From the NCBI RefSeq assembly GCF_030316135.1, contig NZ_CP128185.1, positions 1,736,001 to 1,800,000 of the forward strand: a DNA stretch of 64,000 nt. The letters are read 5' to 3'. Made by a program: the position numbers and the translations under genes. The notes under the pieces are model-generated. The model was not told the origin of the DNA. It worked only from the letters and a program-made list of their open reading frames with translations, and made no database searches. Source of the stretch: Aliiglaciecola sp. LCG003. Lineage in GTDB: Bacteria > Pseudomonadota > Gammaproteobacteria > Enterobacterales > Alteromonadaceae. Of this stretch, positions 19,037 through 34,923 are shown one piece after another (the stretch's first letter is position 1; every line of letters starts with the position of its first letter).

Positions 19037-20356
19037 TTAAATACTCAGCCGTAAATTGAACCTTATTTCATCTACCAATGTTTTTGGCACATGGTGCTGC
19101 AGGGCCAGTTTACGCCATTGAGACACCTGTTCTATGGTGTGATCAATAAGGTGATCTACTTTTTGTTTAGTAAATAAAGCACTTATAGATTTAAAGGTGT
19201 AAAAGTCCTGACGATTAAAATTATCCCGCTTACCATTAATTGACATCCAATGACTATTTACCCATTTGCTACCGGGTTTGTAGCTATATGCCAAATCATA
19301 GGCAGGAGCTAGCTGCCATTGCTGATCACTATCAAATAGGAAAGACACGTTTTTCGCATGGTCATCATGATTTCGTGCTACTACATTGAAAATCATGCGG
19401 CGAAAAATTTGCTCTGCATCCTGAGCGGATAACTTTAATTGCCGAGCCACGTGAAATAGCTCTGCATAGGAGAAACTGCCAACCTGTTTATAGCTAACGT
19501 GGGCCATAGCGTTAAGCGTTTGAACGTGCACTTTTTGATTGCCTATTCTATCATATCGCTGAGTCACAAAATGGCGTCTATTCCCTTCGTTTAGCAAAGA
19601 GCAGGGCATCATGTCTATTCCGCAGTTTTTTGCCATTAAGTAATACACGTACTCCATCGCGCCGTAGCCCATAGGATCGCCAAAGGTTTGTTGATTTTGA
19701 TGGTGTTCACTGACACCATCAAATTTCATTAAATAGTGAGTAAAGCCCTCAGGTGCATCTGTTTGACCAGAGCGGACTTGAGTGAAATCTTGATTAAAGG
19801 CCAGCACTGCTTTGGGTCTTGCTCCACCGGCACTCATGCCGACTGACATTAATGCCATCATCGCTTGTTTGTCTTCTTGACCTGAGTCAGACAGGGAAAC
19901 TTCAAAATCAGCTCGTTGGTTAATAATCTCCTGAGCGATTTCAACTAAGGTGTCCACAGCGATTAGCTGAGATGAATTTAGGTTTTTGAGCCGTGTTGCA
20001 GGGGCATAGGTTAGCGCTCCCATGCCACGGGGACCGGTATATTTAAGTCTCTGAAGGGGGGTAATATCTTGTGGTGATTTCCCTTGGGCGGCAACCCAAG
20101 CGTTAATCACGGCATTACCGAAGTCATCAGGTAAGGAATCTGCAATTAAACCAGGTAAGCCTTTAAATGCCTCAAAATCGGCTTCTGGGAAGCTATAGAT
20201 AGTTTTTGATAAGGGCATTTTAAGTGGCGAGAGTTGAATACCGGTTTTAATAAAACTAGGATAATATTCAAAAGCCCCAAGTCGGGTTTGTTCATTGTAA
20301 CTGACCACACCGACTTCTTTTCCTTGGTAACTAACCTTAACTACCTCCATTACCAT
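19037..20356 (-). CDS. hipA: HipA-type serine/threonine kinase toxin
   Basis: A 439-residue HipA kinase. The N-terminal subdomain is followed by LIADSLPDDFGN, the glycine loop SAGGARPKA (175-183) in the region that carries the autophosphorylated serine in E. coli HipA, the catalytic ARNHDDHAKN motif (327-336) and the metal-binding DLAYS (354-358). In E. coli HipA phosphorylates GltX and halts translation; the target here is unknown. The gene overlaps hipB by 7 bp. An alternative ATG two codons in is equally plausible. All kinase motifs are intact, so the toxin should be active. Confidence 0.92.
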   Translation of the reverse strand: MVMEVVKVSYQGKEVGVVSYNEQTRLGAFEYYPSFIKTGIQLSPLKMPLSKTIYSFPEADFEAFKGLPGLIADSLPDDFGNAVINAWVAAQGKSPQDITPLQRLKYTGPRGMGALTYAPATRLKNLNSSQLIAVDTLVEIAQEIINQRADFEVSLSDSGQEDKQAMMALMSVGMSAGGARPKAVLAFNQDFTQVRSGQTDAPEGFTHYLMKFDGVSEHHQNQQTFGDPMGYGAMEYVYYLMAKNCGIDMMPCSLLNEGNRRHFVTQRYDRIGNQKVHVQTLNAMAHVSYKQVGSFSYAELFHVARQLKLSAQDAEQIFRRMIFNVVARNHDDHAKNVSFLFDSDQQWQLAPAYDLAYSYKPGSKWVNSHWMSINGKRDNFNRQDFYTFKSISALFTKQKVDHLIDHTIEQVSQWRKLALQHHVPKTLVDEIRFNLRLSI

Positions 20357-20664
20357 GATGGTTCATCCTGGTGTTCGTTTGTTTTGGTCCCCGATGCTCT
20401 GCGTCTTTTATTACCTTGACGTTTCTCTAGTTGAATGGGAGACGGTGGTTGGGGTGGCAGAAAGAGGTCCAAATGTCCCTGTAAACCCAATGCATATAGG
20501 ATAGCAACAAAGGTATCCAGTTGGGTTTTACCTTTTTCGGCGTTAATCACCGCTTTACGAGATATGCCCGCTTGGGTTGCCACATCTTGTTGAGTGAGAT
20601 CGAGGTTGAGTCTTGCCTGTTTGAGACGCTCACCTAAGGCTTCAACTGAATCTGTACTGTTCAC
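20350..20664 (-). CDS. hipB: HipB-type antitoxin, Cro/CI helix-turn-helix
   Basis: A 104-residue HTH_3 protein starting with GTG at 20664. The helix-turn-helix covers about 14-65 (LTQQDVATQAGISRKAVINAEKG). A proline-rich, then strongly basic C-terminal tail (KRRRASGTK) follows and is longer than in E. coli HipB. It should neutralise HipA and repress the operon. Three copies of a CTTAATRTTCRA-like repeat lie 25-96 bp upstream and are the likely operators. Confidence 0.9.
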   Translation of the reverse strand: MNSTDSVEALGERLKQARLNLDLTQQDVATQAGISRKAVINAEKGKTQLDTFVAILYALGLQGHLDLFLPPQPPSPIQLEKRQGNKRRRASGTKTNEHQDEPSW

Positions 20665-22138: not shown

Positions 22139-22891
22139 ATGAAAACACTTAATTATGTAAGTTTAGGGTTAGTGATGGCTTGTGTTTCCCTGTCGCACCA
22201 GGCACAAGCAACAGACGGGCAGTGGACAGTTGGCGCTGGTGTAATTGCAGTGGATAACCCCTATATCGGTGTAGACAGTCGAATTATGGCACTGCCTTTC
22301 GTTACCTACAAAAGCGAAAACCTAACCTTTAGAGGCTTTGCATTTGATTATAAGGTGATGCAGTACCAAGACTTGACATTTTCAATCATCTTGAAGCCCG
22401 GTGATGGATTTTTAGATAGCTCGGACTCTGATAACGAAGCAATCCGAGCGTTGTCAGATCGAGATCTTTCATACTATGCCGGTGTTAAGATGTCACACTC
22501 GAGTAAGTTAGGCAGTATAAGTGCTGCGGCCTCCCATGACCTATTGGGCAACGGAGATGGTTATATAATAGATGCTGATTATTCTTATCCCATTCATTTA
22601 GGCGAGAATGTGATGGTGGTGCCCACTATAGGCGTATCCTATAACAGTGCAGATGTGTCAAACTACTATTATGGTGTGGCCGCAGGTGAGTCTGATGTAT
22701 TCGACCAGTATGCTCTTAGTACAACGGTCAATGCTTATATTGGTTTAGTGGTGACTTACAAAATTGATAAAAACTGGTCAGTATCAGCAATGGCTAAGTA
22801 CACACAATTGGATAAAGATATTGAATACTCACCTATCATTGATGATCGTCAAAAAACGATGGGCTTGCTCTCGTTGAACTATCGGTTTTAG
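22139..22891 (+). CDS. MipA/OmpV family outer membrane protein
   Basis: A 250-residue outer membrane protein with a signal peptide (cleavage near AQATDG) and a C-terminal phenylalanine after alternating beta-strand sequence (LLSLNYRF), as expected for a barrel inserted by BAM. The N-terminal motif WTVGAGVIAVDNPYIGVDSRIMALPFVTY and the central YYAGVKMSHSSKLGSISAAASHDLLG are typical of MipA/OmpV. Family members act as scaffold for murein synthesis or as porin-like stress proteins. A GGAA ribosome-binding site precedes the ATG. It lies just upstream of the carbohydrate locus and could admit its substrates; that link is speculative. Confidence 0.9.
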   Translation: MKTLNYVSLGLVMACVSLSHQAQATDGQWTVGAGVIAVDNPYIGVDSRIMALPFVTYKSENLTFRGFAFDYKVMQYQDLTFSIILKPGDGFLDSSDSDNEAIRALSDRDLSYYAGVKMSHSSKLGSISAAASHDLLGNGDGYIIDADYSYPIHLGENVMVVPTIGVSYNSADVSNYYYGVAAGESDVFDQYALSTTVNAYIGLVVTYKIDKNWSVSAMAKYTQLDKDIEYSPIIDDRQKTMGLLSLNYRF

Positions 22892-23041: not shown

Positions 23042-23932
23042 TTAACCAGCACGTAAAGCGGCGAGTGCTTTATAACCTTGCTGGATAGTTTGTAACTTGT
23101 TGTCCGTTTTATCGCGCTCAACAAAGAAGTGCTCGACACCGGCTAATTTGGATTGAGCAAAGATTACTTTGAAATCTATTGTTCCCGTACCTACATCCGC
23201 AAAATTACCTGCTTTATCCATATCTTTCACATGCCATAACTTAAAGCGTCCTGGGTACTGTTTAAAATACACTAAGGGGTCTTGCTGTGCTTTTACCATC
23301 CAGTATAAGTCCATTTCCATAGCCAACAGATTAGCATCTGTTTCATTCAGCAATACATCGAAGGGTAGTTGACCATTGCGCATTTCAAATTCAAACGCAT
23401 GGTTGTGGTAAGCCAGGGTTAATCCAGCCTTGCTGCACGCTGTTCCAATGATATTCAACCGCTCGGCAAGGCGCTTATAAGTATCTATATCTTTACCCCG
23501 TTGTTCTTCGCTCAAATAAGGCAGAACAACAAATTTATGACCTACCTCCAATGCGTGATCAATTACCCCGTTTACGCCATTGTCAAAGGTTTCTAAACTA
23601 ATATGGGCAGAAGGTGCGGTGAGGCCTTCCCCTTGCAGCAGTTTTCTTATTTCACTGGGTTTATGCTCAAAATAACCGGCAAATTCCAATTCTTTATACC
23701 CCACCGCGGCGACTAATTTTAAGGTCGCAGGCACACTCACCGCCATCATGTCGCGCAAGGTGTACAGCTGCAATCCAACTTTAGTCGGTGCGTTAGAGGC
23801 GAATGCCAAACTGCCAGGAAGCGCTGCCATCCCTAGGGTTGCCGCACTGACTTTCAGAAAGCGACGGCGATCTATAGGTTGCTTTGTCGTGGGCGTCGTG
23901 AAATTAATACTAGGTGGCAATGTGGCGGTCAT
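23042..23932 (-). CDS. Tat-exported xylose-isomerase-like TIM-barrel protein
   Basis: A 296-residue AP-endonuclease-2 / sugar isomerase-epimerase fold protein. A twin-arginine signal (RRRFLKVSAATLGMAALPG, residues 22-40) predicts export of the folded, metal-loaded protein. Metal ligands are visible in order: LAYHNHAFEFE, LAMEMDLYWM, LWHVKDM and HFFVERD. It follows the lacI-type gene after 46 bp on the same strand and is probably in its operon. Members in 3-keto-glycoside loci act as isomerases, eliminases or hydratases; which applies here is not readable from sequence. Confidence 0.88.
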   Translation of the reverse strand: MTATLPPSINFTTPTTKQPIDRRRFLKVSAATLGMAALPGSLAFASNAPTKVGLQLYTLRDMMAVSVPATLKLVAAVGYKELEFAGYFEHKPSEIRKLLQGEGLTAPSAHISLETFDNGVNGVIDHALEVGHKFVVLPYLSEEQRGKDIDTYKRLAERLNIIGTACSKAGLTLAYHNHAFEFEMRNGQLPFDVLLNETDANLLAMEMDLYWMVKAQQDPLVYFKQYPGRFKLWHVKDMDKAGNFADVGTGTIDFKVIFAQSKLAGVEHFFVERDKTDNKLQTIQQGYKALAALRAG

Positions 23933-23978
23933 TATCGTTCTCCATTTGCTGTTATATGCTGAGTATATTTGAAGCCAG

Positions 23979-24986
23979 TTAATTGACTGGCGCAGGACCT
24001 GTACTAGTTCTTACTATGAGTTCGAACGGCATAATCACTTTCGGGGCCTTGGTAATTTTTCCGGTGAGAAGATCAATGAGCAGAGACACAGCTGTCTGAC
24101 CAAACTCTTCAGCAGGCTGTGCGATTGTGGTTAATGGCGGATCACAAAAAGCGGAGAAAGAGATATCGTCAAAGCCTGCAATAGAGATATCGTTTGGGAT
24201 CCGCAAGCCAGCCTGTTTGAAGCATTGCATTGCACCAATAGCGGTTTCATCATTTTCGCAAAACACTGCAGTAGGACGGTCTTTACTGCTCAGTATTATA
24301 CTTGCCGCATCGTGACCTGACTGCAGAGTGAAATCTCCTGGATAGAGTAGTGTTTTGTCGAAGGCTAAATCGGCTTCGGCTAAAGCATCGCGATATCCGG
24401 CTAATCTTTGGCAGGTTAACGGACTCGATTGAGGGCCTTTTATCAAGGCTATTCTGGTGTGGCCTAATTCTATTAAATGCTGGGTCATCGCCTTTGCCGC
24501 AGCTCGATTATCTAATGTCACTACAGGACAATTGATATCGTCCAACACTTCACACACATTAACCATGGGCAACATGGTATCTCTTTTATCCATAGAAGCG
24601 TCAAAGGGATTGTAGGCGCGCAATTGGATCAAGCCATCCGCCTGGGAGGTTTGTACCATTTTTGCAAAGTTTGCCTCTATGGCTTCATCACCTAATGTGT
24701 TTCCTAGCAAAATGGAGTAGCCCCGTTCAGCCGCCACTTGTTGCATACCATTGATGACACGAGCAAAGAATACATTGGCAACGGTAGGTACCAACACCAC
24801 TATATTATGGGTTTTACCGGAGCGAAACTTGACCGCCATGAGGTTAGGTTTGTAACCGACTTCGGTCACTGCCGCCATCACCCTCTCACGAGTTTTAGGA
24901 GACACCCGTTCAGGTTGTTGAAGCGTTCTCGATACCGTAGCGACTGAGACACCTGCCATATCAGCTACTTGACGTATATTTGGCAT
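23979..24986 (-). CDS. LacI/GalR-family transcriptional regulator
   Basis: A 335-residue repressor with an N-terminal LacI helix-turn-helix (IRQVADMAGVSVATVSRTLQQ, about 4-24), hinge helix, and a periplasmic-binding-protein-like effector domain (RVINGMQQVAAERGYSILLGNT, ISIAGFDDISFSAF). It is divergent from the Gfo/Idh operon; the intergenic region contains two 14-bp sites that match the LacI-family consensus TGWAANCGNTTWCA in 13 of 14 positions. It therefore probably represses both itself and the oxidoreductase-transport operon until a sugar or keto-sugar binds. The effector is unknown. Confidence 0.93.
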   Translation of the reverse strand: MPNIRQVADMAGVSVATVSRTLQQPERVSPKTRERVMAAVTEVGYKPNLMAVKFRSGKTHNIVVLVPTVANVFFARVINGMQQVAAERGYSILLGNTLGDEAIEANFAKMVQTSQADGLIQLRAYNPFDASMDKRDTMLPMVNVCEVLDDINCPVVTLDNRAAAKAMTQHLIELGHTRIALIKGPQSSPLTCQRLAGYRDALAEADLAFDKTLLYPGDFTLQSGHDAASIILSSKDRPTAVFCENDETAIGAMQCFKQAGLRIPNDISIAGFDDISFSAFCDPPLTTIAQPAEEFGQTAVSLLIDLLTGKITKAPKVIMPFELIVRTSTGPAPVN

Positions 24987-25028
24987 ATGTGCTTTTTCCT
25001 AACCTGTGTCTGCTGTACAAAAATGCAA

Positions 25029-25042
25029 TGTAACCGTTATCA
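25029..25042. promoter_or_regulatory. LacI-family operator, site 1
   Basis: TGTAACCGTTATCA (minus strand TGATAACGGTTACA) matches the LacI-family consensus TGWAANCGNTTWCA at 13 of 14 positions. It lies about 43-56 bp upstream of the lacI-type start codon, a good place for autoregulation. Confidence 0.65.
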
Positions 25043-25105
25043 TTATTATAAAAATAATACCTTCGTTTAGATAAAAATCCACCAATAAATTAAATTTATG
25101 GCAAA

Positions 25106-25119
25106 TGATAGCGGTTTTT
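25106..25119. promoter_or_regulatory. Weak third operator-like site
   Basis: TGATAGCGGTTTTT keeps the left half and CG centre of the two stronger sites but loses the right half. It lies between them and could support looping. Low confidence. Confidence 0.3.
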
Positions 25120-25174
25120 TTAAACTAAATTTTAACAAGTTAGCCGAATAACAGGATTTTCAGGCTGAAATCCA

Positions 25175-25204
25175 TTGACACAATTAAATGTAATCCGTTA
25201 CATT
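25175..25204 (+). promoter_or_regulatory. Candidate promoter of the Gfo/Idh operon, overlapped by operator site 2
   Basis: A perfect -35 box TTGACA (25175-25180) is followed 18 bp later by TACATT (25199-25204), 4 of 6 matches to the -10 consensus. The operator TGTAATCCGTTACA (25189-25202, 13 of 14 matches to the LacI-family consensus and flanked by further symmetric As and Ts) covers the spacer and part of the -10, so a bound repressor would block RNA polymerase. Confidence 0.6.
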
Positions 25205-25268
25205 TTATAAAATGATTACATCTGTGTAACATAATTGTTAGCAAATGATAGTGAGTTAGGAGGCTAAT

Positions 25269-26426
25269 GTGACAGCAATCAAAAAAGTTCGTATGGGAAT
25301 GGTAGGAGGAGGAGAGGGGGCTTTCATTGGTGCTGTACACCGTCACGCTCTAGCTCTGGACGGACAAATTGAATTAGTTTGTGGAGCGTTTAGCCGCGAT
25401 CCTGATAATAATCAGCGCACTGGTGACAGTCTAGGTTTGGATGCGCAGCGGGTCTATTCATCATGGCAAGCGTTACTCGTCGCTGAGGCCGCCTTAGCGC
25501 CTCAAGACCGTATGGAAGTGTTAATAATTGTCACACCCAATCATCTTCATGTACCTATTTCAATCGCTGCGATAGAAGCTGGCTTCCACGTATTTTGTGA
25601 AAAGCCAGCAGCAGTATCACTTGAACAGGCGATCGAACTTAAATCTCGAGTCGACAAAAGTAATAAACTCTATGGATTAGCCCATACTTATCTTGGTTAT
25701 CCGATGGTTTGGCAAGCGCAAAATATGGTAGCGGAGGGACTGTTAGGCGACATACGTAAAGTGTATGTTGAATATCCTCAGGGTTGGCTTTCTGCTAATG
25801 AAGAAAGCCACAACAAACAAGCATCATGGCGCACTGATCCAAGTCAGGCTGGAGGCAGTGGTTGTATGGGGGATATTGGTACCCATGCCTTCGGACTTGT
25901 TGAATTTGTTTTACAGCAAAATGTCACTTCCCTTTGTGCAGACTTAAACACCCATATTGATGGACGCCGTTTAGATGATGATGGAGCCGCCTTTCTGCGC
26001 ACCGAAAAGGGCGCAAGTGGGGTGTTAATCGCCAGCCAAGTCTGTGCCGGTGTGGAAAATGGCTTAAAAATTAAAGTTTACGGCGATAAAGGCGGAATCG
26101 AATGGGAGCAAATGTCACCTAATTCTCTAGTGTATCGTCCGGTTGGTCAACCTTATCAAGTTCTTAGAGCTGGTCTTGGTCAGCCAGGTTTATGTACAGA
26201 GGCGCTCAACCGTTGTCGTACACCAGGCGGACATCCAGAAGGATATTTGGAAGCAATGGCCAATTTGTACGTGGATTTTGCCGCAGCAGTCAGAAAAGAG
26301 CTCGCAGGCAAAGCACCTGGCGTACCCGGGATAGACTCCGGTCTGCGTGGTATGGCTTTCATAGAAGCTATGTTGTCGAGTAGCAGCAGTGACACCAAAT
26401 GGCACCCTGTGCCACACAATGATTAA
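25269..26426 (+). CDS. Gfo/Idh/MocA-family NAD(P)-dependent oxidoreductase
   Basis: A 385-residue cytoplasmic oxidoreductase. The GTG start is set by a strong AGGAGG site 5 bp upstream; an ATG two bases earlier is followed at once by a stop. The Rossmann glycine motif is GMVGGGEGAFIGAVH near residue 9, the catalytic-lysine motif CEKPAAVS near 116, and GDIGTHAFGLVEF supplies the active-site His/Asp. It is the first gene of the operon and, in a keto-sugar pathway, would oxidise or reduce the C3 position of a sugar. Exact substrate unknown. Confidence 0.92.
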   Translation: MTAIKKVRMGMVGGGEGAFIGAVHRHALALDGQIELVCGAFSRDPDNNQRTGDSLGLDAQRVYSSWQALLVAEAALAPQDRMEVLIIVTPNHLHVPISIAAIEAGFHVFCEKPAAVSLEQAIELKSRVDKSNKLYGLAHTYLGYPMVWQAQNMVAEGLLGDIRKVYVEYPQGWLSANEESHNKQASWRTDPSQAGGSGCMGDIGTHAFGLVEFVLQQNVTSLCADLNTHIDGRRLDDDGAAFLRTEKGASGVLIASQVCAGVENGLKIKVYGDKGGIEWEQMSPNSLVYRPVGQPYQVLRAGLGQPGLCTEALNRCRTPGGHPEGYLEAMANLYVDFAAAVRKELAGKAPGVPGIDSGLRGMAFIEAMLSSSSSDTKWHPVPHND

Positions 26427-26471
26427 GATTAAAAGGTAGCTGATATTTAGCTGCTACACAGGAGAAAAACG

Positions 26472-27530
26472 ATGAGTGCGATTAAAGGGCCGGCTATTTT
26501 TCTGGCGCAGTTTATGGGTGATGAAGCTCCTTTTAATAGCTTGGAAGGCATCACCAAATGGGCTGGTTCGTTAGGCTATAAAGGTATTCAGGTGCCCACC
26601 AATGATAAGCGAATTTTTGATTTGGAATTGGCAGCAAGCAGCCAAGAGTATTGCGATAAAGTTATGTCAATTTGTGCCGAAGCCGGATTACAGATCACTG
26701 AGTTGTCTACTCATTTACAAGGTCAGTTGGTCGCCGTACATCCTGCATATGATGAACTATTTGATAACTTTGCTCCTGCTCATTTACACGGCAAACCCGC
26801 AGAACGCACTGAATGGGCCGTTGAACAGATGAAGTTGGCGGCGAAAGCCAGTCAGCGGCTAGGATTAAACGCTCATGCGACATTTTCTGGCGCATTTTTA
26901 TGGCATTTGGTTTATCCCTGGCCCCAGCGTCCAGCCGGTCTAGTTGAACAAGGCTTTGCGGAATTAGCCAAACGTTGGTTACCTATTCTGGATGCCTTCG
27001 ATGAGGTCGGAGTGGATGTGTGTTATGAAATCCATCCTGGTGAAGACTTGCATGACGGGGCTTCATTCGAGCGCTTTTTAACGGCGGTTGATAATCATCC
27101 TCGGGCAAATATTTTATTTGATCCTAGCCATTTTGTATTACAGCAATTGGATTATCTGGCGTTTATCGACCTGTATCATGAACGAATTAAAATGTTTCAT
27201 GTTAAGGATGCAGAATTTAACCCTAATGGCCGCTCAGGTGTATATGGTGGTTACCAAGATTGGGCTAATCGTCCCGGCCGTTTCCGTTCGTTAGGAGATG
27301 GACAAGTCGACTTTAAGGGTATTTTTAGCAAATTAACCCAGTATGATTTTAAAGGTTGGGCTGTGCTTGAATGGGAATGCTGCATAAAAGATTCAGCCCA
27401 AGGTGCGGCTGAAGGAGCACCGTTTATCGCTAGTCATATTATCACTCCTGCTGGTCGCGCATTTGATGATTTTGCTGGCGCAAAAAGTAGTGAAACTCGA
27501 AACCGTCGAATTTTAGGATTGGATGACTAA
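26472..27530 (+). CDS. Cytoplasmic sugar isomerase/epimerase-like TIM-barrel protein
   Basis: A 352-residue protein of the xylose-isomerase-like TIM-barrel fold without a signal peptide. Metal-ligand segments are VCYEIHPGEDLHDG, ILFDPSHFVLQQLD, IKMFHVKDAEFNPNG and AVLEWECCIKD, in the normal order. It is longer than the other two TIM-barrel proteins of the locus because of an insertion after the HVKD motif (YGGYQDWANRPGRFRSLGDG). This long type commonly sits beside Gfo/Idh genes. It follows the oxidoreductase by 45 bp and should act on the same cytoplasmic intermediate. Confidence 0.9.
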   Translation: MSAIKGPAIFLAQFMGDEAPFNSLEGITKWAGSLGYKGIQVPTNDKRIFDLELAASSQEYCDKVMSICAEAGLQITELSTHLQGQLVAVHPAYDELFDNFAPAHLHGKPAERTEWAVEQMKLAAKASQRLGLNAHATFSGAFLWHLVYPWPQRPAGLVEQGFAELAKRWLPILDAFDEVGVDVCYEIHPGEDLHDGASFERFLTAVDNHPRANILFDPSHFVLQQLDYLAFIDLYHERIKMFHVKDAEFNPNGRSGVYGGYQDWANRPGRFRSLGDGQVDFKGIFSKLTQYDFKGWAVLEWECCIKDSAQGAAEGAPFIASHIITPAGRAFDDFAGAKSSETRNRRILGLDD

Positions 27531-27585
27531 GTCATCGGCACTACAAGTGTCTAAGTAAGCTTTATCAAATGGAGTGTGTACAAGA

Positions 27586-28806
27586 ATGAATAATATAACA
27601 CTGCGCCTTAGTGTCATGATGTTCCTGCAATTTTTCATCTGGGGTGGCTGGTTTGTTACCTTGGGTACCTTTTTAGCCAACAACTTATCAGCTTCAGGCG
27701 GTCAAATAGGCATGGCCTTTTCAACCCAATCATGGGGGGCAATTATAGCGCCGTTCATTATAGGTTTAATTGCTGATCGTTATTTCAATGCTGAACGCAT
27801 ACTTGGGGTACTCCACTTGGTAGGCGCAGGGTTGATGTATTGTTTATATCAGGCTGCAGATTTTGATGCATTTTATCCGTTTGTTTTGGCTTATATGATT
27901 GCTTACATGCCGACGTTGGCACTAGTCAATTCAGTGTCATTTGCCCAAATGAATAATCCTTCTAAACAGTTTGGAAAAATTCGAGTATGGGGCACAGTAG
28001 GTTGGATAGTAGCCGGATTGGCTATCAGCTACGCATTTTCGTGGGATGCAAAACAAGCCATTGCAGAGGGTATGTTACGTAACACTTTCTTGTTATGTGC
28101 TGGGGCTTCACTAATTCTGGGATTATTTAGTTTCACCTTACCCAAAACCCCACCTAAAGCCAATTCAGAACGAGTAGGTTTGAAAGACATGTTAGGGCTT
28201 GACGCTTTGGCCCTGCTAAAAGACCGAAATTTTTTGATGTTCTTTATATCCTCGGTATTAATTTGTATTCCTCTGGCGTTTTACTATCAAAATGCCAATC
28301 CGTTTTTAACCGAAATAGGGGTTGAAAATGCGACCGGGAAAATGACCTTGGGGCAGATCTCTGAAGTGTTGTTTATGTTAGCGTTGCCAGTATTTTTAAA
28401 TCGCTTCGGGATCAAGATCACTTTGCTAATTGGTATGTTGGCGTGGGTGTTACGTTATGTGTTATTTGCCTACGGAAATGCCGATGGTAGTATGGTTTTA
28501 CTCCTAACAGGTATTGCGTTACATGGTATTTGTTATGATTTCTTCTTCGTATCAGGGCAAATCTATACTGACGCTAAAGCGGGCGAAAGAGTCAAAAATG
28601 CTGCTCAAGGCCTAATCACGCTGGCGACCTATGGTATCGGTATGTTGGTGGGTTTTTGGGTAGCTGGAAAAATAACCGACAGCTATACCCTTGAGAGCGG
28701 CCACAACTGGACTAACATCTGGTTATTTCCTGCTGCTTTTGCTTTCGTTGTTTTCATATTGTTTATGTTCACCTTTAAAAGTGAAAAGGTATCAACTGAT
28801 GAATAA
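27586..28806 (+). CDS. NupG-type MFS transporter (nucleoside:H+ symporter family)
   Basis: A 12-helix major facilitator protein of 406 residues from the ATG at 27586; a GTG four codons earlier (27574) is possible but the GGAG site is spaced better for the ATG. The opening SVMMFLQFFIWGGWFVTLGTF is highly characteristic of the nucleoside:H+ symporter (NupG/XapB) family. Placed between sugar-modifying genes, it more likely carries a sugar, keto-sugar or glycoside than a nucleoside; that substrate shift is inferred from context. It overlaps the next gene by 8 bp. Confidence 0.88.
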   Translation: MNNITLRLSVMMFLQFFIWGGWFVTLGTFLANNLSASGGQIGMAFSTQSWGAIIAPFIIGLIADRYFNAERILGVLHLVGAGLMYCLYQAADFDAFYPFVLAYMIAYMPTLALVNSVSFAQMNNPSKQFGKIRVWGTVGWIVAGLAISYAFSWDAKQAIAEGMLRNTFLLCAGASLILGLFSFTLPKTPPKANSERVGLKDMLGLDALALLKDRNFLMFFISSVLICIPLAFYYQNANPFLTEIGVENATGKMTLGQISEVLFMLALPVFLNRFGIKITLLIGMLAWVLRYVLFAYGNADGSMVLLLTGIALHGICYDFFFVSGQIYTDAKAGERVKNAAQGLITLATYGIGMLVGFWVAGKITDSYTLESGHNWTNIWLFPAAFAFVVFILFMFTFKSEKVSTDE

Positions 28807-29686
28807 TCCACGCAGAACGTTGCTCAAAGGCCTAGCCATTAGCAGCGCAGCCCTGGCCACGAATGTGTCAGTAAGTGGGATTGCCAATGCTAAAGCAGAA
28901 AAAACAAGCAAACTCAAAGGTAATATTAATCATTCCGTAAGTCGCTGGACCTATGGTGATCTTAGCATCGAAGAATTGTGTCAGACAGTAAAGGCACTGG
29001 GCTTTTCAGCTATCGATTTGGTGGGACCAGAAGATTGGCCAATGCTTAAAAAGTACGCTATTGATTCTTCAATGTGTAATGGCGCAGAGTTAAATCTTGT
29101 CGATGGCTGGATACACCCGCAATTTCATGATGAGTTAACTCGCAGGTATCTACGTCATATCGATTTAGTTGCTGAAGCTGGTTACAAAAACCTGATCTGT
29201 TTTAGCGGCAATGCACGAGGCATGAGCCGTGAAGAGGGTTTGAAAAATGCGGTGAATGGCTTATCACGTATTTTGCATCATGCTGAGCGTAAAGGCGTGA
29301 CGATACAAATGGAGCTTTTCAATAGCCGAGTGGATCATCCTGATTATATGGCAGATAACTCTGAATGGGGAATTTCACTGTGTAAAGCCCTAGGAACGGA
29401 AAGTTTTAAACTGCTGTACGACATTTACCATATGCAAATTAATGAAGGCGATATTATTCGCACGATCCAAAATAATCATCAATATTTTGGCCATTACCAC
29501 ACTGCAGGTGTACCGGGGCGGCATGAAATTGATGACACTCAAGAACTGTATTACCCGGCAATTGCTCGTGCAATAGTCGCAACAGGGTTTACAGGCGTAC
29601 TTGCACAGGAATTTATTCCAACACCTAAAGATCGGTCAGGCAAAATTGAATCATTGCGCAATGCGATTCAAATTTGTGATGTCTAA
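28799..29686 (+). CDS. Tat-exported hydroxypyruvate-isomerase-like TIM-barrel protein
   Basis: A 295-residue protein from the ATG at 28799, which overlaps the transporter gene by 8 bp. It begins with a twin-arginine signal (NPRRTLLKGLAISSAALATN). The mature domain resembles hydroxypyruvate isomerase (Hyi): IQMELFNSRVDHPDY, KLLYDIYHMQINEGDI and FGHYHTAGVPGRHEIDD, then LAQEFIPT for the last metal ligand. Export argues against a role on hydroxypyruvate and for a periplasmic sugar or keto-sugar substrate. It lies directly before the GMC oxidoreductase gene. Confidence 0.88.
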   Translation: MNNPRRTLLKGLAISSAALATNVSVSGIANAKAEKTSKLKGNINHSVSRWTYGDLSIEELCQTVKALGFSAIDLVGPEDWPMLKKYAIDSSMCNGAELNLVDGWIHPQFHDELTRRYLRHIDLVAEAGYKNLICFSGNARGMSREEGLKNAVNGLSRILHHAERKGVTIQMELFNSRVDHPDYMADNSEWGISLCKALGTESFKLLYDIYHMQINEGDIIRTIQNNHQYFGHYHTAGVPGRHEIDDTQELYYPAIARAIVATGFTGVLAQEFIPTPKDRSGKIESLRNAIQICDV

Positions 29687-29730
29687 AAACGAATTGAAAG
29701 CGCTTGGAAACAAGCGTTAAGGGGATACAT

Positions 29731-31416
29731 GTGGCAAATAATGAATATGACGCAATAGTCGTTGGCTCTGGGATCAGCGGCGGTTGGGCAGCTAAAGAGT
29801 TGACCGAAAAAGGCTTAAAAGTGTTGATGCTCGAGCGGGGCAAAAACATTGAACACATAAAAGATTACAAAAATGCGCATAAAGAGGCGTGGGACTATCC
29901 TCACAGAGATACCGCCACTGAGCAAATGAAACAAGATTATCCAGTGTTGAAACGAGATTACCCCTTAAACGAATCTACTTTCGGCATGTGGGCGAATGAG
30001 AAAGATGCCCCCTACGTTGAAAAGAAGCGATTTGATTGGTATCGCGGCTATCACGTTGGAGGACGTTCATTATTGTGGGGCCGCCAAAGTTACAGATTGA
30101 ACCCAGAAGATTTCATGGCGAATGCCAAAGAAGGTATCGCGGTTGATTGGCCTATACGTTATGAAGACGTAGCGCCTTGGTACGATTACGTAGAACGTTT
30201 TGCAGGTATCAGTGGTAATCGAGATGGCTTAGATGTGTTGCCTGATGGGCAATACCAACCTGCCATGATACTCAACTGTGTTGAAAAGGATGTGTCTGCT
30301 CGTATTCAAAAAGCCTACAAAGGCACTCGCCATATGATTTCCGGGCGCACCGCCAATATGACCCAAGCTAAACCCGAAGAAGGTCGGACAAGTTGCCAAT
30401 ACCGCAACAAATGTTGGTTGGGCTGTCCTTTTGGTGGCTATTTCAGTACTCAGTCCTCGACATTGCCTGCGGCTATGAAGACCGGCAACTTGACCGTGCG
30501 GCCATTTTCTATTGTAACCGAAATTTTGTATGACAAAGACAAAAAGCGCGCTACTGGCGTTGCCATTATCGATGCTGAAACCAATCAGACCTACGAATAC
30601 AAAAGTAAGATTGTGTTTGTAAATGCATCCTCATTTAATTCAAGTTGGTTACTAATGAATTCGGCCACTGATGTGTGGGAAGATGGTTTAGGTAGCAGCA
30701 GTGGTGAACTTGGACACAATGTAATGGATCACCATTTCCGTATTGGGGCCTCAGCGCAAGTTGAAGGTTTTGATGACAAATATACCTTTGGTCGTCGGCC
30801 CAGTGGTTTTTACGTACCAAGGTTCAGAAACTGGCATGATGATAAACGAGATTACTTACGCGGCTTTGGCTATCAAGGCGGTGCAAGTCGTCAAGGTTGG
30901 CGTCGAGATGTGGCCGAAATGGGCTTGGGCGCAAGCTTGAAAAATGCCATCAGTGAACCAGGGAATTGGCAAATTGGTATGACAGCCTTTGGCGAAATGT
31001 TACCGGATCATAGCAATCGCATTTACCTTAATCGCAACGTCAAAGACAAGTGGGGATTACCGGTGCTTGAAATGGATGTTGAGTTGAAGGAAAACGAACT
31101 GCGTATGCGTAAAGATATGCAGCAAGATGCGATTGATATGTTTGAAGCCGCCAATTTAAAAAATGTGCACGGTTTCGATGCATCCTATACACCCGGCATG
31201 GGTATTCATGAGATGGGAACTGCCCGAATGGGTCGTGATCCTAAAAGCTCAGTATTGAATGGTCATAATCAGGTGTGGGATGCGTTGAATGTATTTGTTA
31301 CCGATGGCGCCTGTATGACGTCTGCCTCTTGCGTTAATCCTTCTTTAACCTATATGGCGTTAACCGCCAGAGCAGCGAGCTTTGCGGTTGAAGAGCTGAA
31401 AAAAGGAAACCTGTAG
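29731..31416 (+). CDS. GMC-family FAD-dependent oxidoreductase with FAD-GDH-type iron-sulfur cysteine motif
   Basis: A 561-residue GMC flavoenzyme from the GTG at 29731, chosen because an AAGGGG site precedes it. The FAD motif VVGSGISGGWAAKEL is at the N-terminus; catalytic H493 lies in GIHEMGTARMG and N536 in ASCVNPSLTYMAL. C222, C228 and C232 form C-x5-C-x3-C, the pattern that binds a 3Fe-4S cluster in bacterial FAD-glucose dehydrogenase. It has no signal peptide and would be exported together with the Tat-bearing small subunit encoded 2 bp downstream. Likely substrates are sugars or glycosides, oxidised in the periplasm. Confidence 0.92.
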   Translation: MANNEYDAIVVGSGISGGWAAKELTEKGLKVLMLERGKNIEHIKDYKNAHKEAWDYPHRDTATEQMKQDYPVLKRDYPLNESTFGMWANEKDAPYVEKKRFDWYRGYHVGGRSLLWGRQSYRLNPEDFMANAKEGIAVDWPIRYEDVAPWYDYVERFAGISGNRDGLDVLPDGQYQPAMILNCVEKDVSARIQKAYKGTRHMISGRTANMTQAKPEEGRTSCQYRNKCWLGCPFGGYFSTQSSTLPAAMKTGNLTVRPFSIVTEILYDKDKKRATGVAIIDAETNQTYEYKSKIVFVNASSFNSSWLLMNSATDVWEDGLGSSSGELGHNVMDHHFRIGASAQVEGFDDKYTFGRRPSGFYVPRFRNWHDDKRDYLRGFGYQGGASRQGWRRDVAEMGLGASLKNAISEPGNWQIGMTAFGEMLPDHSNRIYLNRNVKDKWGLPVLEMDVELKENELRMRKDMQQDAIDMFEAANLKNVHGFDASYTPGMGIHEMGTARMGRDPKSSVLNGHNQVWDALNVFVTDGACMTSASCVNPSLTYMALTARAASFAVEELKKGNL

Positions 31417-31418
31417 CC

Positions 31419-32021
31419 ATGAATAGACGTGAAATACTTAAAATGATTGCCGCTGCAACCGGCACAGCATTTGTTGGTAGCAATGCACTAGCCTACGACA
31501 TGGTTCCCAAGGTGAAGTTGGCCGATACTGGTTTTTCAAAAGATGACGTGGCTTATTTAAACGAGATAGGCGAAACAATCATTCCTCGCACGGACACTCC
31601 CGGCGCGAAAGATGCCAATGTAGGCCTAACTATGGCCATAATGGTAGCAGATTGTTATAGCCAGCCAGCACGAGATGCATTTAAGCAAGGCATGGTGACG
31701 CTTAAACAAGCTGCCACTAATGCCTTTGGTAAAGATTTTTTGCTTTTAACCAGTGAACAGAAATTAACACTTTTGACTGAACTTGATGAAGAGGCAAAAC
31801 TTTATAATCAAAAAATGCACGAGTTAGCTGAGCAAAAAACTGAAGCTGAGTCGTCTGTTGAACGAGTGCCTCATTATTTTTCTTTGATGAAACAGTTGGT
31901 GTTATTTAGTTTCTTCACCTCTGAAATTGGTGCCAATAAGGTGCTTCGTTATGTTGCGATCCCAAGTCGTTATGACGGCGAGTTTCCCTACAAGAAGGGC
32001 GACCGAGCTTGGGCAACTTAG
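31419..32021 (+). CDS. Gluconate 2-dehydrogenase subunit 3 family protein (Tat small subunit)
   Basis: A 200-residue small subunit with a twin-arginine-type signal (NRREILKMIAAATGTAFVG, cleavage near ALAYD). The mature part has the family pattern YLNEIGETIIPRTDTPGAKDANVG and ends VLRYVAIPSRYDGEFPY. In FAD-GDH, gluconate and glucoside 3-dehydrogenases this subunit carries the GMC catalytic subunit across the membrane as a hitch-hiker. It starts 2 bp after the GMC gene. The third usual partner, a multi-haem cytochrome c, is not encoded in this locus. Confidence 0.92.
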   Translation: MNRREILKMIAAATGTAFVGSNALAYDMVPKVKLADTGFSKDDVAYLNEIGETIIPRTDTPGAKDANVGLTMAIMVADCYSQPARDAFKQGMVTLKQAATNAFGKDFLLLTSEQKLTLLTELDEEAKLYNQKMHELAEQKTEAESSVERVPHYFSLMKQLVLFSFFTSEIGANKVLRYVAIPSRYDGEFPYKKGDRAWAT

Positions 32022-32075
32022 TCTTTGAACCACTGTTTAATATTCAACCAGAATAATTGCGAAAAGGGAAAAGAA

Positions 32076-32855
32076 GTGAAAGATTGCAAAACAAAATATA
32101 GTAAAGGGTTATTACTCGCCGGATTGGTCGGTTTAATTAATAGCCATGCTGTGTCCGCGCAGGAAACCTTAGAGCCGTGGCAGCAAGCAGAAAAAACCGA
32201 AGTATGGGAGCCTGTTCCCGTTGCAGTTTCCACCACTGAAGGTCAGGCGCCCTCCGATGCGATAGTTTTGATTGGAAGCAATGGTCTAAATGCTTGGCAG
32301 GGCTTAGAAGGCGGAGAAGCGCCTTGGTCCCTGCAAAACAATGTTGTAACCGTAAAACCCGGAACCGGTGATATCAAAACTAAACAGAAGTTCTGTGATA
32401 TCCAATTGCATTTAGAGTGGCAAACCCCGACTGACGTAACCGATATGGAAGGGCAGCAACGCAATAACAGTGGCGTATTTTTGCAGCAACGATACGAAGT
32501 GCAAATATTAGATTCATACAACAATAAAACCTATCCGAATGGTCAGGCGGCAAGCATTTATAAGCAAACTATTCCATTAGTGAATGCGATGAGACCTGCA
32601 GGAGAATGGCAATACTACGACATTATTTTCACCGCCCCGCGTTTTAGTGGCAGTGAATTATCCCAACCCGGATATGTAACCGTGTTACACAATGGCGTGT
32701 TGGTGCAGAATCATGTGAAAATTCAAGGGAAAACTGAATGGATTGGCGCCCCCAGTTACCAGGCTCATGGCTGTGAACCGCTGCAACTGCAGGACCATGG
32801 AAATTTGGTTAGCTTTCGCAATATGTGGGTGAGGGAGCTGAACACAGCAAAGTAA
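32076..32855 (+). CDS. Secreted DUF1080 protein (3-keto-disaccharide hydrolase family)
   Basis: A 259-residue protein from the GTG at 32076, preceded by GGGAAAAGAA; a TTG 51 bp earlier is in frame but lacks a site. A signal peptide (cleavage near SAQET) predicts export. The mature part is a DUF1080 (PF06439) lectin-like jelly roll: LIGSNGLNAWQ, then FCDIQLHLEWQ, NNSGVFLQQRYEVQILDS and a C-terminal VSFRNMWVREL. The family includes enzymes that cleave 3-keto-glycosides. Its place right after the GMC dehydrogenase fits use of that enzyme's product in the periplasm. Confidence 0.9.
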   Translation: MKDCKTKYSKGLLLAGLVGLINSHAVSAQETLEPWQQAEKTEVWEPVPVAVSTTEGQAPSDAIVLIGSNGLNAWQGLEGGEAPWSLQNNVVTVKPGTGDIKTKQKFCDIQLHLEWQTPTDVTDMEGQQRNNSGVFLQQRYEVQILDSYNNKTYPNGQAASIYKQTIPLVNAMRPAGEWQYYDIIFTAPRFSGSELSQPGYVTVLHNGVLVQNHVKIQGKTEWIGAPSYQAHGCEPLQLQDHGNLVSFRNMWVRELNTAK

Positions 32856-32922
32856 CTTCCAACCAGTTAAGTAAACCTAGATTTAGCCTAGGTGGTGTTT
32901 GGTCTGGGGAACAGCAAACAAC

Positions 32923-32962
32923 AAGCGCCAAATGCCCGTGATTGACTGGGCATTTGGCGCTT
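32923..32962. repeat. Perfect 15-bp hairpin between the DUF1080 and aldo/keto reductase genes
   Basis: AAGCGCCAAATGCCC (32923-32937) pairs without mismatch with GGGCATTTGGCGCTT (32948-32962) around a 10-nt loop. No T-run follows. Placed 68 bp past the DUF1080 stop, it may attenuate transcription or stabilise the upstream mRNA. Confidence 0.7.
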
Positions 32963-33059
32963 AGCAGTCGGGTCGCTTTAATAGGCCCGAATTCAAAATG
33001 ATGTAAAAGCCATAGGTTTCATTAATCAAGCTATGGGTCACAAGGGAGCCAGTTTCGGC

Positions 33060-34061
33060 ATGTCAAATTATCAAGCCAGTCACAATCGTTATGAACAAAG
33101 TCGCTATTCAAAATGCGGGAACAGCGGCCTAAAACTGCCGTATGTCTCATTGGGTTTGTGGCACAACTTCGGTGGTCAAGATAACCAAAAAACTGCATTA
33201 GATATGTTGTTAAGGGCGTTTGATCTGGGTATTACTCATTTCGACTTGGCTAACAACTATGGGCCTCCGGCTGGTAGCGCGGAATCTTTTTTTGGCGAAG
33301 TGATTAGCGGTCCATTAAAACCTTATCGTGACGAACTCATCGTTTCCACCAAAGCCGGTTACGGCATGTGGCCTGGCCCATATGGTGATTGGGGTTCCCG
33401 TAAGTATCTGGTTGCCAGCCTTGACCAAAGCTTACAACGCATGCAACTCGATTATGTGGATATTTTTTATCACCACAGGCGGGATACCGATACGCCTTTA
33501 GAAGAGACCATGCAAACTCTGAGTGATATCGTGCGTAATGGAAAAGCCCTCTATGTTGGTTTGTCCAATTACAATGCCGCAGATTTATTGGAAGCCAATA
33601 GTATTCTTAGTAAGAGCGGTACACCGTGTATTGTTAACCAACCTAAATTTAGTATGCTGGATCGAACAATAGAACAGCAAGGGGTGCTTGATGCTGCCAA
33701 GTCGGCAGGGATTGGTACTGTGCCATTTTCGCCGCTGGCGCAAGGATTATTATCAAATAAGTATTTGAATGGAATTCCAAAGCACTCAAGAGCTAGCAAT
33801 CCCGATAGTTTTCTGCAATCTGAGCAGATAACCCAAGAAGTACTCAACAAGGTCACTTTGCTGAATGAGCTTGCTCAACAACGGGGGCAGTCTTTGCCGC
33901 AATTGGCGATTAGTTGGATCCATGCTAAACCATCAATTACCTCATGTATTATTGGAGCAAGTAAAGTCAGTCAAATTGAAGAGCTGGTCGCGACCCAACA
34001 TCAAGCGCCATTGACTGAACAAGAAATGAAAATGATAGATGTTATTTTAACGTCAGACTAG
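33060..34061 (+). CDS. Aldo/keto reductase (YghZ-like)
   Basis: A 333-residue NADPH-dependent reductase from the ATG at 33060; this start matches the length of E. coli YghZ and has AAGGGAG upstream, whereas the ATG at 33033 has no close site. The tetrad region reads HFDLANNYG, STKAGYG and FYHHR, and the NADPH-binding end reads SCIIGASKVSQIEEL. The LSLGLWHNFG-like segment is typical of the glyceraldehyde/methylglyoxal-reducing YghZ group. Within the locus it could reduce a keto or aldehyde product. Confidence 0.9.
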   Translation: MSNYQASHNRYEQSRYSKCGNSGLKLPYVSLGLWHNFGGQDNQKTALDMLLRAFDLGITHFDLANNYGPPAGSAESFFGEVISGPLKPYRDELIVSTKAGYGMWPGPYGDWGSRKYLVASLDQSLQRMQLDYVDIFYHHRRDTDTPLEETMQTLSDIVRNGKALYVGLSNYNAADLLEANSILSKSGTPCIVNQPKFSMLDRTIEQQGVLDAAKSAGIGTVPFSPLAQGLLSNKYLNGIPKHSRASNPDSFLQSEQITQEVLNKVTLLNELAQQRGQSLPQLAISWIHAKPSITSCIIGASKVSQIEELVATQHQAPLTEQEMKMIDVILTSD

Positions 34062-34119
34062 ACATAGGCAATGTCACTGCGTATTTTCATACTAAGTGAC
34101 ATGAATTTGAGGTGAAAAA

Positions 34120-34923
34120 ATGGTGCGGTTAGCCGGTAAGAGAGTATTGGTTACTGGTGCTGCGCAAGGAATTGGCCTAGCCATCGCCAAATTATTTTTA
34201 GAGTCTGCTGCAACCGTGGTACTGACGGATATTGACCATGATAAAGGCCAGCGAGCCGCTGAGAGATTAGCTGCAGGGGCGAGTTATCTTGCCCTCGACG
34301 TCAGTAATGAGAAACAGTGGCAAGATGTTTGTGACGTTATTTTGGCTAAATTTGCTGGCTTAGATATAGTAATAAATAATGCAGGGATAACTGGCTTTGG
34401 TCAAACCACAGGTCCTCATGACCCGGAAAACTTGCATATGGATTCTTGGCATCAAGTTCATCGTACAAATTTAGACGGCGTGGCGTTGGGTTGTAAATAT
34501 GCCATTCGTATGATGAAAACGTCAAAATCAGCTAGTATTATTAATATTTCGTCTCGTTCGGGTATTGTCGGCATCCCGGCTGCAGCGGCATATGCCGCCA
34601 GTAAAGCCGCCGTTAGAAACCATACTAAGTCAGTTGCTCTATATTGTGCAGAGCAGGGCTACCCAATTCGGTGTAATTCTATTCATCCAGGAGCTATTCT
34701 TACTCCTATGTGGGACCAAATGCTCGGTGAAGGAGACGCACGAGCAACCGCAATCGATGCAATTTCCTCTGACATTCCCTTAAAAAAAATGGGCCAACCA
34801 GAAGATGTGGCTTATGCCGCACTTTATTTAGCCTCGGATGAATCAAAGTACGTGACAGGTATCGAGTTAAATATTGATGGTGGAATACTTGCCGGCGCGA
34901 CGGCTGCGCCGCGGAAAGACTAA
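34120..34923 (+). CDS. SDR-family oxidoreductase
   Basis: A 267-residue classical short-chain dehydrogenase. The cofactor motif is TGAAQGIGLAIA near residue 11, the structural NNAG lies near 88, the catalytic serine is in NISSRSG and the catalytic YxxxK in YAASKAA. The aspartate after the second strand (VLTDIDHDKG) points to NAD rather than NADP. It lies 58 bp after the aldo/keto reductase and is the last gene of the carbohydrate locus. Substrate not predictable. Confidence 0.9.
   Translation: MVRLAGKRVLVTGAAQGIGLAIAKLFLESAATVVLTDIDHDKGQRAAERLAAGASYLALDVSNEKQWQDVCDVILAKFAGLDIVINNAGITGFGQTTGPHDPENLHMDSWHQVHRTNLDGVALGCKYAIRMMKTSKSASIINISSRSGIVGIPAAAAYAASKAAVRNHTKSVALYCAEQGYPIRCNSIHPGAILTPMWDQMLGEGDARATAIDAISSDIPLKKMGQPEDVAYAALYLASDESKYVTGIELNIDGGILAGATAAPRKD

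Follow-up and report, generated by a model that had tools for sequence, protein, structure and literature searches.

We analyzed a locus at positions 23042-34923 of a 64,000-nucleotide (nt) stretch of the genome of Aliiglaciecola sp. LCG003 (NZ_CP128185.1; this whole stretch is hereafter called the window). In all likelihood, it carries a LacI-controlled module of nine genes for the oxidative degradation of glycosides, free of glycoside hydrolases. Eleven open reading frames (ORFs) had been listed here in an initial annotation of the DNA; profile searches of each protein found all of them in place and recovered the families named. Two genes lie on the minus strand: TIM1 (23042-23932; AP_endonuc_2, PF01261), which codes for a xylose isomerase-like TIM barrel predicted to be exported by the twin-arginine translocation (Tat) route, and the gene for a CytR-like regulator of the LacI family (23979-24986; PF00356, PF13377). 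The remaining genes are on the plus strand and encode a Gfo/Idh/MocA oxidoreductase (25269-26426), the cytoplasmic AP_endonuc_2 protein HYD (26472-27530), a NupG-type carrier of the major facilitator superfamily (MFS; 27574-28806; Nuc_H_symport, PF03825), TIM2, a second Tat-exported TIM barrel (28799-29686; PF01261), a GMC flavoprotein with both its N- and C-terminal domains (29731-31416; PF00732/PF05199), a Gluconate_2-dh3 small subunit with a Tat signal (31419-32021; PF13618), a DUF1080 or 3-keto-disaccharide hydrolase protein (32076-32855; 3keto-disac_hyd, PF06439, E = 1.1e-37), and a pair formed by an aldo/keto reductase and a short-chain dehydrogenase/reductase (SDR) (33033-34923; Aldo_ket_red, adh_short).

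The initial annotation had also seen neither a glycoside hydrolase nor a TonB-dependent receptor in the locus, and neither family was matched in Pfam by any of the eleven proteins. Across the whole genome (4.41 Mb), PF06439 and PF13618 have one match each, both inside the cluster, and all three above-cut-off matches of PF01261 likewise fall within it, with a fourth, below cut-off, elsewhere. The co-location of these families in one cluster is beyond chance. From the Gfo/Idh gene to the DUF1080 gene, all genes are co-directional, and are separated by 2-45 nt when using the listed starts, by at most 54 nt when using later GTG starts, or overlap by 8 nt. For the GMC and DUF1080 genes, the TTG starts in the list (29704 and 32025, respectively) are probably too early; we favor GTG 29731 and GTG 32076, because both agree with the starts of relatives. 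For TIM2, ATG 28799 is the most likely start, within an 8-nt overlap with the end of the carrier gene. A gap of 177 nt separates the DUF1080 gene from the aldo/keto reductase gene, and the system proper consists of the nine genes at 23042-32855.

Related loci and gene order

We collected related loci through a scan with HYD, retaining the best 80 of at least 592; the counts given here are at set thresholds and include loci shortened by contig ends. The initial annotation had suggested a survey of co-occurrence in other Alteromonadales; among the related loci, we found the order TIM1-LacI-Gfo-HYD-NupG-TIM2-GMC-small subunit-DUF1080 to be identical in six loci, five from Paraglaciecola, Marisediminitalea and Alteromonas (L002, L003, L004, L005, L007) and one from a gammaproteobacterial metagenome-assembled genome (L009). 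In L002 and L009, a TonB receptor gene lies next to the cluster. The same nine genes are rearranged in Halomonas (L014), and the same gene set is found, also rearranged, in the gammaproteobacterial loci L137, L138 and L140. Rheinheimera (L006) keeps LacI-Gfo-HYD-NupG, without close homologs of TIM1, TIM2 or the small subunit. Over the 80 loci, Gfo is present in 64, TIM1 in 34, GMC in 28, TIM2 in 27, the small subunit in 26, the carrier in 24 and LacI in 14, while DUF1080 is found in 16 by single-sequence search and in 44 by profile. TIM1, GMC, small subunit, carrier, TIM2 and DUF1080 occur all together in 11 of the 51 loci with full flanks, including those of Mucilaginibacter, Luteibacter and Halomonas.

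The initial annotation had counted the aldo/keto reductase and the SDR as members of the pathway. We abandoned this assignment, since none of the 80 loci has a counterpart of either at 150 bits or more, the 177-nt gap precedes the pair, and the reductase gene adjacent to HYD is Gfo/Idh. A single aldo/keto reductase match of 64 bits was seen, in L007. The pair probably forms a separate unit, unrelated to the pathway.

Predicted export of the proteins

Export signals were scored with a simple rule of our own making, not a trained predictor, on rows filtered by coverage and score. Among the TIM1 homologs, 41 of 45 carried a Tat signal and three a Sec signal; for TIM2, the corresponding figures were 23 and three of 27. 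All 21 small subunits scored as Tat, and the 16 DUF1080 homologs comprised 12 Sec, two lipoprotein, one Tat and one unclear. The controls were almost uniformly free of signals (HYD 79/80, with one scored Sec; Gfo 62/64, with two unclear; LacI 18/18; GMC 36/36). The row for the NupG-type carrier spans just the N-terminal residues and carries no information. In the window itself, a twin-arginine N terminus is seen in the small subunit, in TIM2 and in TIM1, whose match to the TAT_signal profile (21.1 bits) is slightly below the cut-off of 22.7; the DUF1080 protein has a hydrophobic, Sec-like N terminus after GTG 32076, as judged by eye. By these scores, related loci usually place oxidation and cleavage outside the cytoplasm, and hydration and reduction within it. 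The earlier view that the split between two compartments is unusual thus does not hold; moreover, a periplasmic version is reported for lactose use by Caulobacter in the available text of PMC9007349.

TIM1, HYD and the Gfo/Idh oxidoreductase

The sequence of TIM1 matches the PDB entries 8tcd/8tcs/8tct and 8bvk, the last being the eliminase AtOGE of Agrobacterium tumefaciens. When its AlphaFold model (mean predicted local distance difference test, pLDDT, 88.4) was ranked by fold, AL1 and BT1 took ranks 1-4, uncharacterized Parabacteroides proteins ranks 5-7, and AtOGE ranks 8-9. AL1 (Alistipes) and BT1 (Bacteroides) are 3-keto-beta-glucopyranoside-1,2-lyases (8tcd, 8tcr, 8tct); TIM1 belongs to the same fold family, with TM-scores to target of 0.79-0.82, although the identity over the fold alignments is just 26%-29%. 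On an alignment counted by eye, TIM1 residues E83, H110, H176, H178, E206, D208, H234 and E272 correspond to E39, H66, H132, H134, E161, D163, H189 and E233 of AtOGE, and all eight are invariant or at least 90% conserved across 46 aligned sequences. In AtOGE, as far as the available text goes, the metal is held by H132, D163, H189 and, weakly, E233, H134 is catalytic, and in the other subunit, where the metal is shifted, its ligands are E39, H66 and E161 (PMC10628242). The counterparts of the metal ligands and of the catalytic histidine are kept in the TIM1 family, with H176, D208, H234 and H178 invariant and E272 at 90% or more. Because TIM1 matches AL1, BT1 and AtOGE with these eight residues kept, elimination is a likely mode of cleavage beside DUF1080, and TIM1 is probably a 3-keto-glycoside 1,2-lyase homolog, which would act by elimination and not by hydrolysis.

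HYD matches the 2-hydroxy-3-keto-glucal hydratase AtHYD of A. tumefaciens (8ro4) over residues 1-350 with 583 bits, versus 162.5 bits for the runner-up (2zds) and 46 bits for IolE (3cny). By this full-length match, it is an AtHYD-type hydratase homolog. It shares 89% identity with the copy of Paraglaciecola polaris, versus 70%-74% with the seven copies from its own genus, and homologs occur in 84 of 196 genomes of the family. The initial annotation had cast Tat-exported TIM barrels as cleaving enzymes; this survives for TIM1, sharpened to a lyase, while its cytoplasmic barrel becomes a hydratase homolog. The best structural-database match of the Gfo/Idh protein is 3v5n, an oxidoreductase with unstated substrate. 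Its gene is co-directional with HYD and less than 400 nt away in 59 of the 80 loci, and the enzyme is probably a 3-keto-glucose reductase.

A first count had suggested that HYD-Gfo pairs often lack an exported partner (24 of the 51 full-flank loci). Divergent PF06439 proteins, recognized by Pfam, had been missed in two loci, and a profile search left 14 of the 24; we draw no conclusion from this count. On plasmids of Phyllobacterium and Azospirillum (L087, L091), the HYD and Gfo genes adjoin a sugar ATP-binding cassette (ABC) transporter, and may use imported 3-keto-sugars; for the flanking stretch, the PLSDB gene tables, which are incomplete, list neither a further isomerase-type lyase nor a GMC or DUF1080 gene.

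TIM2 and the NupG-type carrier

TIM2 keeps an acidic/histidine site, with E172 and D208 invariant and H234 and E271 conserved at 90% or more in 27 sequences. By fold and by profile, its closest matches are epimerases and isomerases of ketoses and 3-keto-sugars, several about equally close: for the model (mean pLDDT 83.4), psicose 3-epimerase, YcjR and 3ngf match to much the same degree. YcjR, the 3-keto-D-glucoside 4-epimerase of Escherichia coli (6wn6), shares the fold of TIM2 with TM-scores to target of 0.75-0.76 and a profile E-value of 2.1e-8, but their identity is 18%, and psicose 3-epimerases and 3ngf match TIM2 equally or better. These comparisons weakly suggest that TIM2 is a periplasmic epimerase or isomerase acting on a 3-keto-glycoside or 3-keto-sugar. 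Homologs are present in 14 of 398 sampled Pseudomonadota genomes (its own included), with the GMC gene directly after in 12 of the 14.

The NupG-type carrier matches PF03825 above the Pfam cut-off (E = 9.3e-126), and falls short of the NupG nucleoside permease profile TIGR00889 (414.5 bits, cut-off 446.1). It is found in 24 of the 80 loci, 22 of which have GMC too, and probably imports the cleavage product. A literature search that covered few subscription papers found no description of NupG-family import of 2-hydroxy-3-keto-glucal or 3-keto-glucose. We also considered the glycal as the sole imported species, but it may not be: a Bacteroides thetaiotaomicron lyase eliminates and also hydrates the glycal (PMC13273386), and LgdB2 likewise does both, according to the available text of PMC7676230. 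Since these known enzymes carry out both steps, the glycal could be hydrated already outside.

A more specific proposal joins the two proteins. TIM2 would be a 3-keto-glycoside epimerase coupled in the periplasm to the GMC dehydrogenase, converting 3-keto galacto-, manno- or other glycosides to the gluco form, and the carrier would import 2-hydroxy-3-keto-glucal or 3-keto-glucose. We regard this as a tentative and rather doubtful proposal; if true, the epimerase would let one lyase and one hydratase serve many glycosides. The genome G067, where TIM2 has no GMC gene within about 9 kb on either side, speaks against a fixed coupling of TIM2 and GMC.

The GMC dehydrogenase pair and the DUF1080 protein

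The GMC protein aligns over its full length with the large subunit of fructose dehydrogenase and keeps a C-x5-C-x3-C motif, presumably a 3Fe-4S site. Its domains come without a signal of their own and are paired with the Tat Gluconate_2-dh3 subunit (PF13618, E = 5.5e-33), which would carry the GMC subunit out. Its probable specificity for C3 of glycosides is read from gene context. The DUF1080 protein scores 130.3 bits against PF06439, versus a cut-off of 26.8, and matches 4qhz, a putative glycosyl hydrolase, with an E-value of 1.4e-72.

Regulation of the cluster

The best NCBIfam match of the LacI regulator is CytR, under cut-off. Upstream of the Gfo gene, on the plus strand at 25175-25204, we found a promoter-like site (TTGACA-18-TACATT), overlapped by the palindrome AATGTAATCCGTTACATT at 25187-25204 (AATGTAA-N4-TTACATT). 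The promoter-like site alone proves nothing, because the scan found 22 such sites versus 24.5 expected in the region. The palindrome core occurs once in the window versus 0.13 expected, lies upstream of Gfo in seven of eight related loci, and has one mismatch in the eighth (L002). In Halomonas (L014), a second copy stands before the TIM1-TIM2-GMC half, so that the core precedes both halves of the split cluster. The palindrome is probably a LacI operator, and its conservation supports a single LacI regulon over the nine genes, the regulator being expected to bind there.

The operator pattern occurs at four places in the genome, including its own, versus one for a reversed-pattern control. We considered a wider regulon and set it aside: one place (L121) opens a run of coding ORFs, and the other two, centered on GCGC, precede TonB receptor and GH1 genes with their own LacI nearby; we judged these places unrelated or a separate regulon. 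The region L122 of this genome (about 92.5-108.5 kb), which has two ATGTAAGCGCTTACAT sites, holds a conventional set: a TonB receptor, a tryptophan halogenase family protein, a GH1 protein, an MFS sugar carrier and a LacI of its own.

Neighboring genes

The cluster is adjoined by the gene for a MipA/OmpV family outer-membrane protein (window 22139-22891, plus strand), which could assist entry; when the flanks of eight related loci were compared, none held a counterpart. At 19037-20664 of the window, on the minus strand, a HipA-like kinase and a small helix-turn-helix partner form a HipBA-type toxin-antitoxin pair.

Discussion

We propose the following pathway. The GMC protein and its small subunit would be exported folded by the Tat route, and would oxidize glucosides at C3 in the periplasm, handing the electrons to an acceptor, probably a cytochrome c, whose gene lies elsewhere. 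The 3-keto-glycoside would then be split in the periplasm, either by beta-elimination through TIM1, giving 2-hydroxy-3-keto-glucal, or by the DUF1080 enzyme, or by both. There TIM2 may also act, as an epimerase or isomerase, on the 3-keto-glycoside or the 3-keto-sugar. The carrier would import the released 3-keto-sugar or its glycal; in the cytoplasm, HYD would hydrate 2-hydroxy-3-keto-glucal, forming 3-keto-glucose, and reduction of the latter by the Gfo/Idh enzyme would give glucose. The pathway builds on homology, active-site conservation, gene linkage, rule-based export signals and a conserved palindrome, from which we infer the reactions in this organism, their substrates and the cargo of the carrier. 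Of the pathway in the initial annotation, our findings fit the periplasmic oxidation at C3, cleavage by exported enzymes, the import step and a reduction in the cytoplasm, but not the roles given to the aldo/keto reductase and the SDR.

Several observations weigh against this proposal. Among solved structures, the GMC protein comes closest to fructose and glucose dehydrogenases, with 135 bits at best. No ORF of at least 70 codons in the whole 64-kb window contains a CxxCH motif, and no genome match of the cytochrome c families PF00034 or PF13442 falls in the window. A nearby CxxCH ORF is seen in 17 of the 28 GMC-bearing loci, that is, in 15 of 16 from Bacteroidota and two of 12 others; by contrast with our window, the ORF of Bacteroidota is placed after HYD, directly so in 13 loci, whereas the two other cases are an antisense ORF (L002) and an ORF without Pfam match (L018). 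The Caulobacter dehydrogenase has a third component, LacC, which we take to be a cytochrome c subunit; by these searches no cytochrome lies in the window, and the pair here lacks the linked third subunit of the LacABC type. Gene linkage is also looser in some genomes. Of the 37 places with a GMC protein of at least 73% identity (its own included), 24 share a contig with HYD at a distance of no more than 15 kb. Two genomes of the same genus (G183, G009) hold a TIM2-GMC-small subunit-DUF1080 block away from HYD, and in a third (G144) GMC-small subunit-DUF1080 has no TIM2 nearby; the blocks can therefore work separately.

As a separate observation, in four Bacteroidota loci (L072, L055, L041, L077) a small cytochrome c gene (PF00034), at about 11.03-11.5 kb, directly follows the hydratase gene and is a candidate linked acceptor; all four of these CxxCH ORFs, when scanned, matched Cytochrom_C above cut-off.

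Could oxidation be the only periplasmic step, with the carrier importing the intact 3-keto-glycoside to be split inside, as in an Agrobacterium-like order? The catalytic core of AtOGE (8bvk) aligns from chain residue 9, leaving no room for a signal, and in L139, a locus of alphaproteobacterial type, from another class of this phylum, where small subunit and DUF1080 were not found, the homologs of TIM1 and TIM2 show no visible signals by eye. Therefore, a cytoplasmic version exists too. However, TIM1, TIM2 and DUF1080 bear signals here and in nearly all scored relatives, which places the cleaving enzymes outside the cytoplasm and makes this order very improbable for our locus. It is scarcely credible that the cluster serves some other polyhydroxy compound, such as inositol, gluconate or a uronate, its likeness to glucoside pathways being general superfamily resemblance. 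In NCBIfam, weak hits to the myo-inosose dehydratase IolE, to IolG and to hydroxypyruvate isomerase would point this way, but all are far under cut-off; HYD prefers AtHYD to IolE by the wide difference in bits given above, and the top matches of TIM1 among characterized proteins are keto-glucoside lyases, with the uncharacterized Parabacteroides proteins as its other strong matches.

A different division of labor would make DUF1080 the main cleaving enzyme, acting as a hydrolase, and leave TIM1 and HYD as a side route for some substrates. A DUF1080 protein plays an important part in the use of lactose by Caulobacter, and periplasmic hydrolysis has been proposed there (PMC9007349, available text); among our HYD loci, a DUF1080-like flanking ORF (44/80) is more frequent than TIM1 (34/80). 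The presence of HYD in every locus follows from how the set was built, and is evidence neither for nor against this possibility. Given that TIM1 keeps the full lyase site and that the small subunit is present in 26 of the 34 TIM1-bearing loci, we consider it unlikely, and retain elimination by TIM1 as a probable route of cleavage.

The locus presents the oxidative, hydrolase-free breakdown of glycosides for Alteromonadaceae, and its predicted order of compartments is clear and its regulator and operator are likely. As a compact genetic system in which every step can be deleted, it allows direct tests of the role of TIM2 and of the identity of the 3-keto intermediate that passes through the inner membrane. 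Any leakage of intermediates would make the pathway relevant to cross-feeding with 3-keto-sugars as well.

Three described systems can be compared with it. The dehydrogenase of the A. tumefaciens operon is a homolog of GlycDH, which we presume to be a GMC-type enzyme. In the available text of PMC10628242, GlycDH is expressed together with a protein of Rhizobium sp. GIN611 that bears a TAT signal; the operon further codes for the eliminase AtOGE, shown biochemically, the hydratase AtHYD, on preliminary evidence, and a Gfo oxidoreductase. The order of reactions is the same as here, with homologous lyase and hydratase (8bvk, 8ro4) and a Gfo/Idh reductase; the operon differs in that AtOGE has no export signal, and DUF1080, a NupG-type carrier and TIM2 are not among the parts described in that text. 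The lactose locus of Caulobacter crescentus comprises LacABC, the DUF1080 proteins CCNA_01705 and CCNA_01698, a transporter, two sugar epimerases and a reductase, and similar clusters are cited in Halomonas titanicae, Algoriphagus and Indibacter (PMC9007349, available text). Compared by description only, it shares with our locus a periplasmic dehydrogenase, an exported DUF1080 protein, a transporter, two epimerase-annotated proteins and a reductase; it was the sole match to a combination of at least four features of the pathway in a literature search that covered few subscription papers. The levoglucosan pathway of Bacillus smithii (LgdA/B1/B2/C) likewise proceeds through oxidation, elimination, hydration and reduction, with a dehydrogenase, two isomerase-like proteins and a Gfo/Idh reductase, but its first step depends on NAD and its transporter is of the ABC type, and GMC, DUF1080 and an exported lyase are not among the parts described in the available text (PMC7676230). 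The reaction sequence is thus already published, to the extent of those texts, for levoglucosan (PMC7676230) and for the glucosides of A. tumefaciens (PMC10628242), and the system of Aliiglaciecola is of a known kind.

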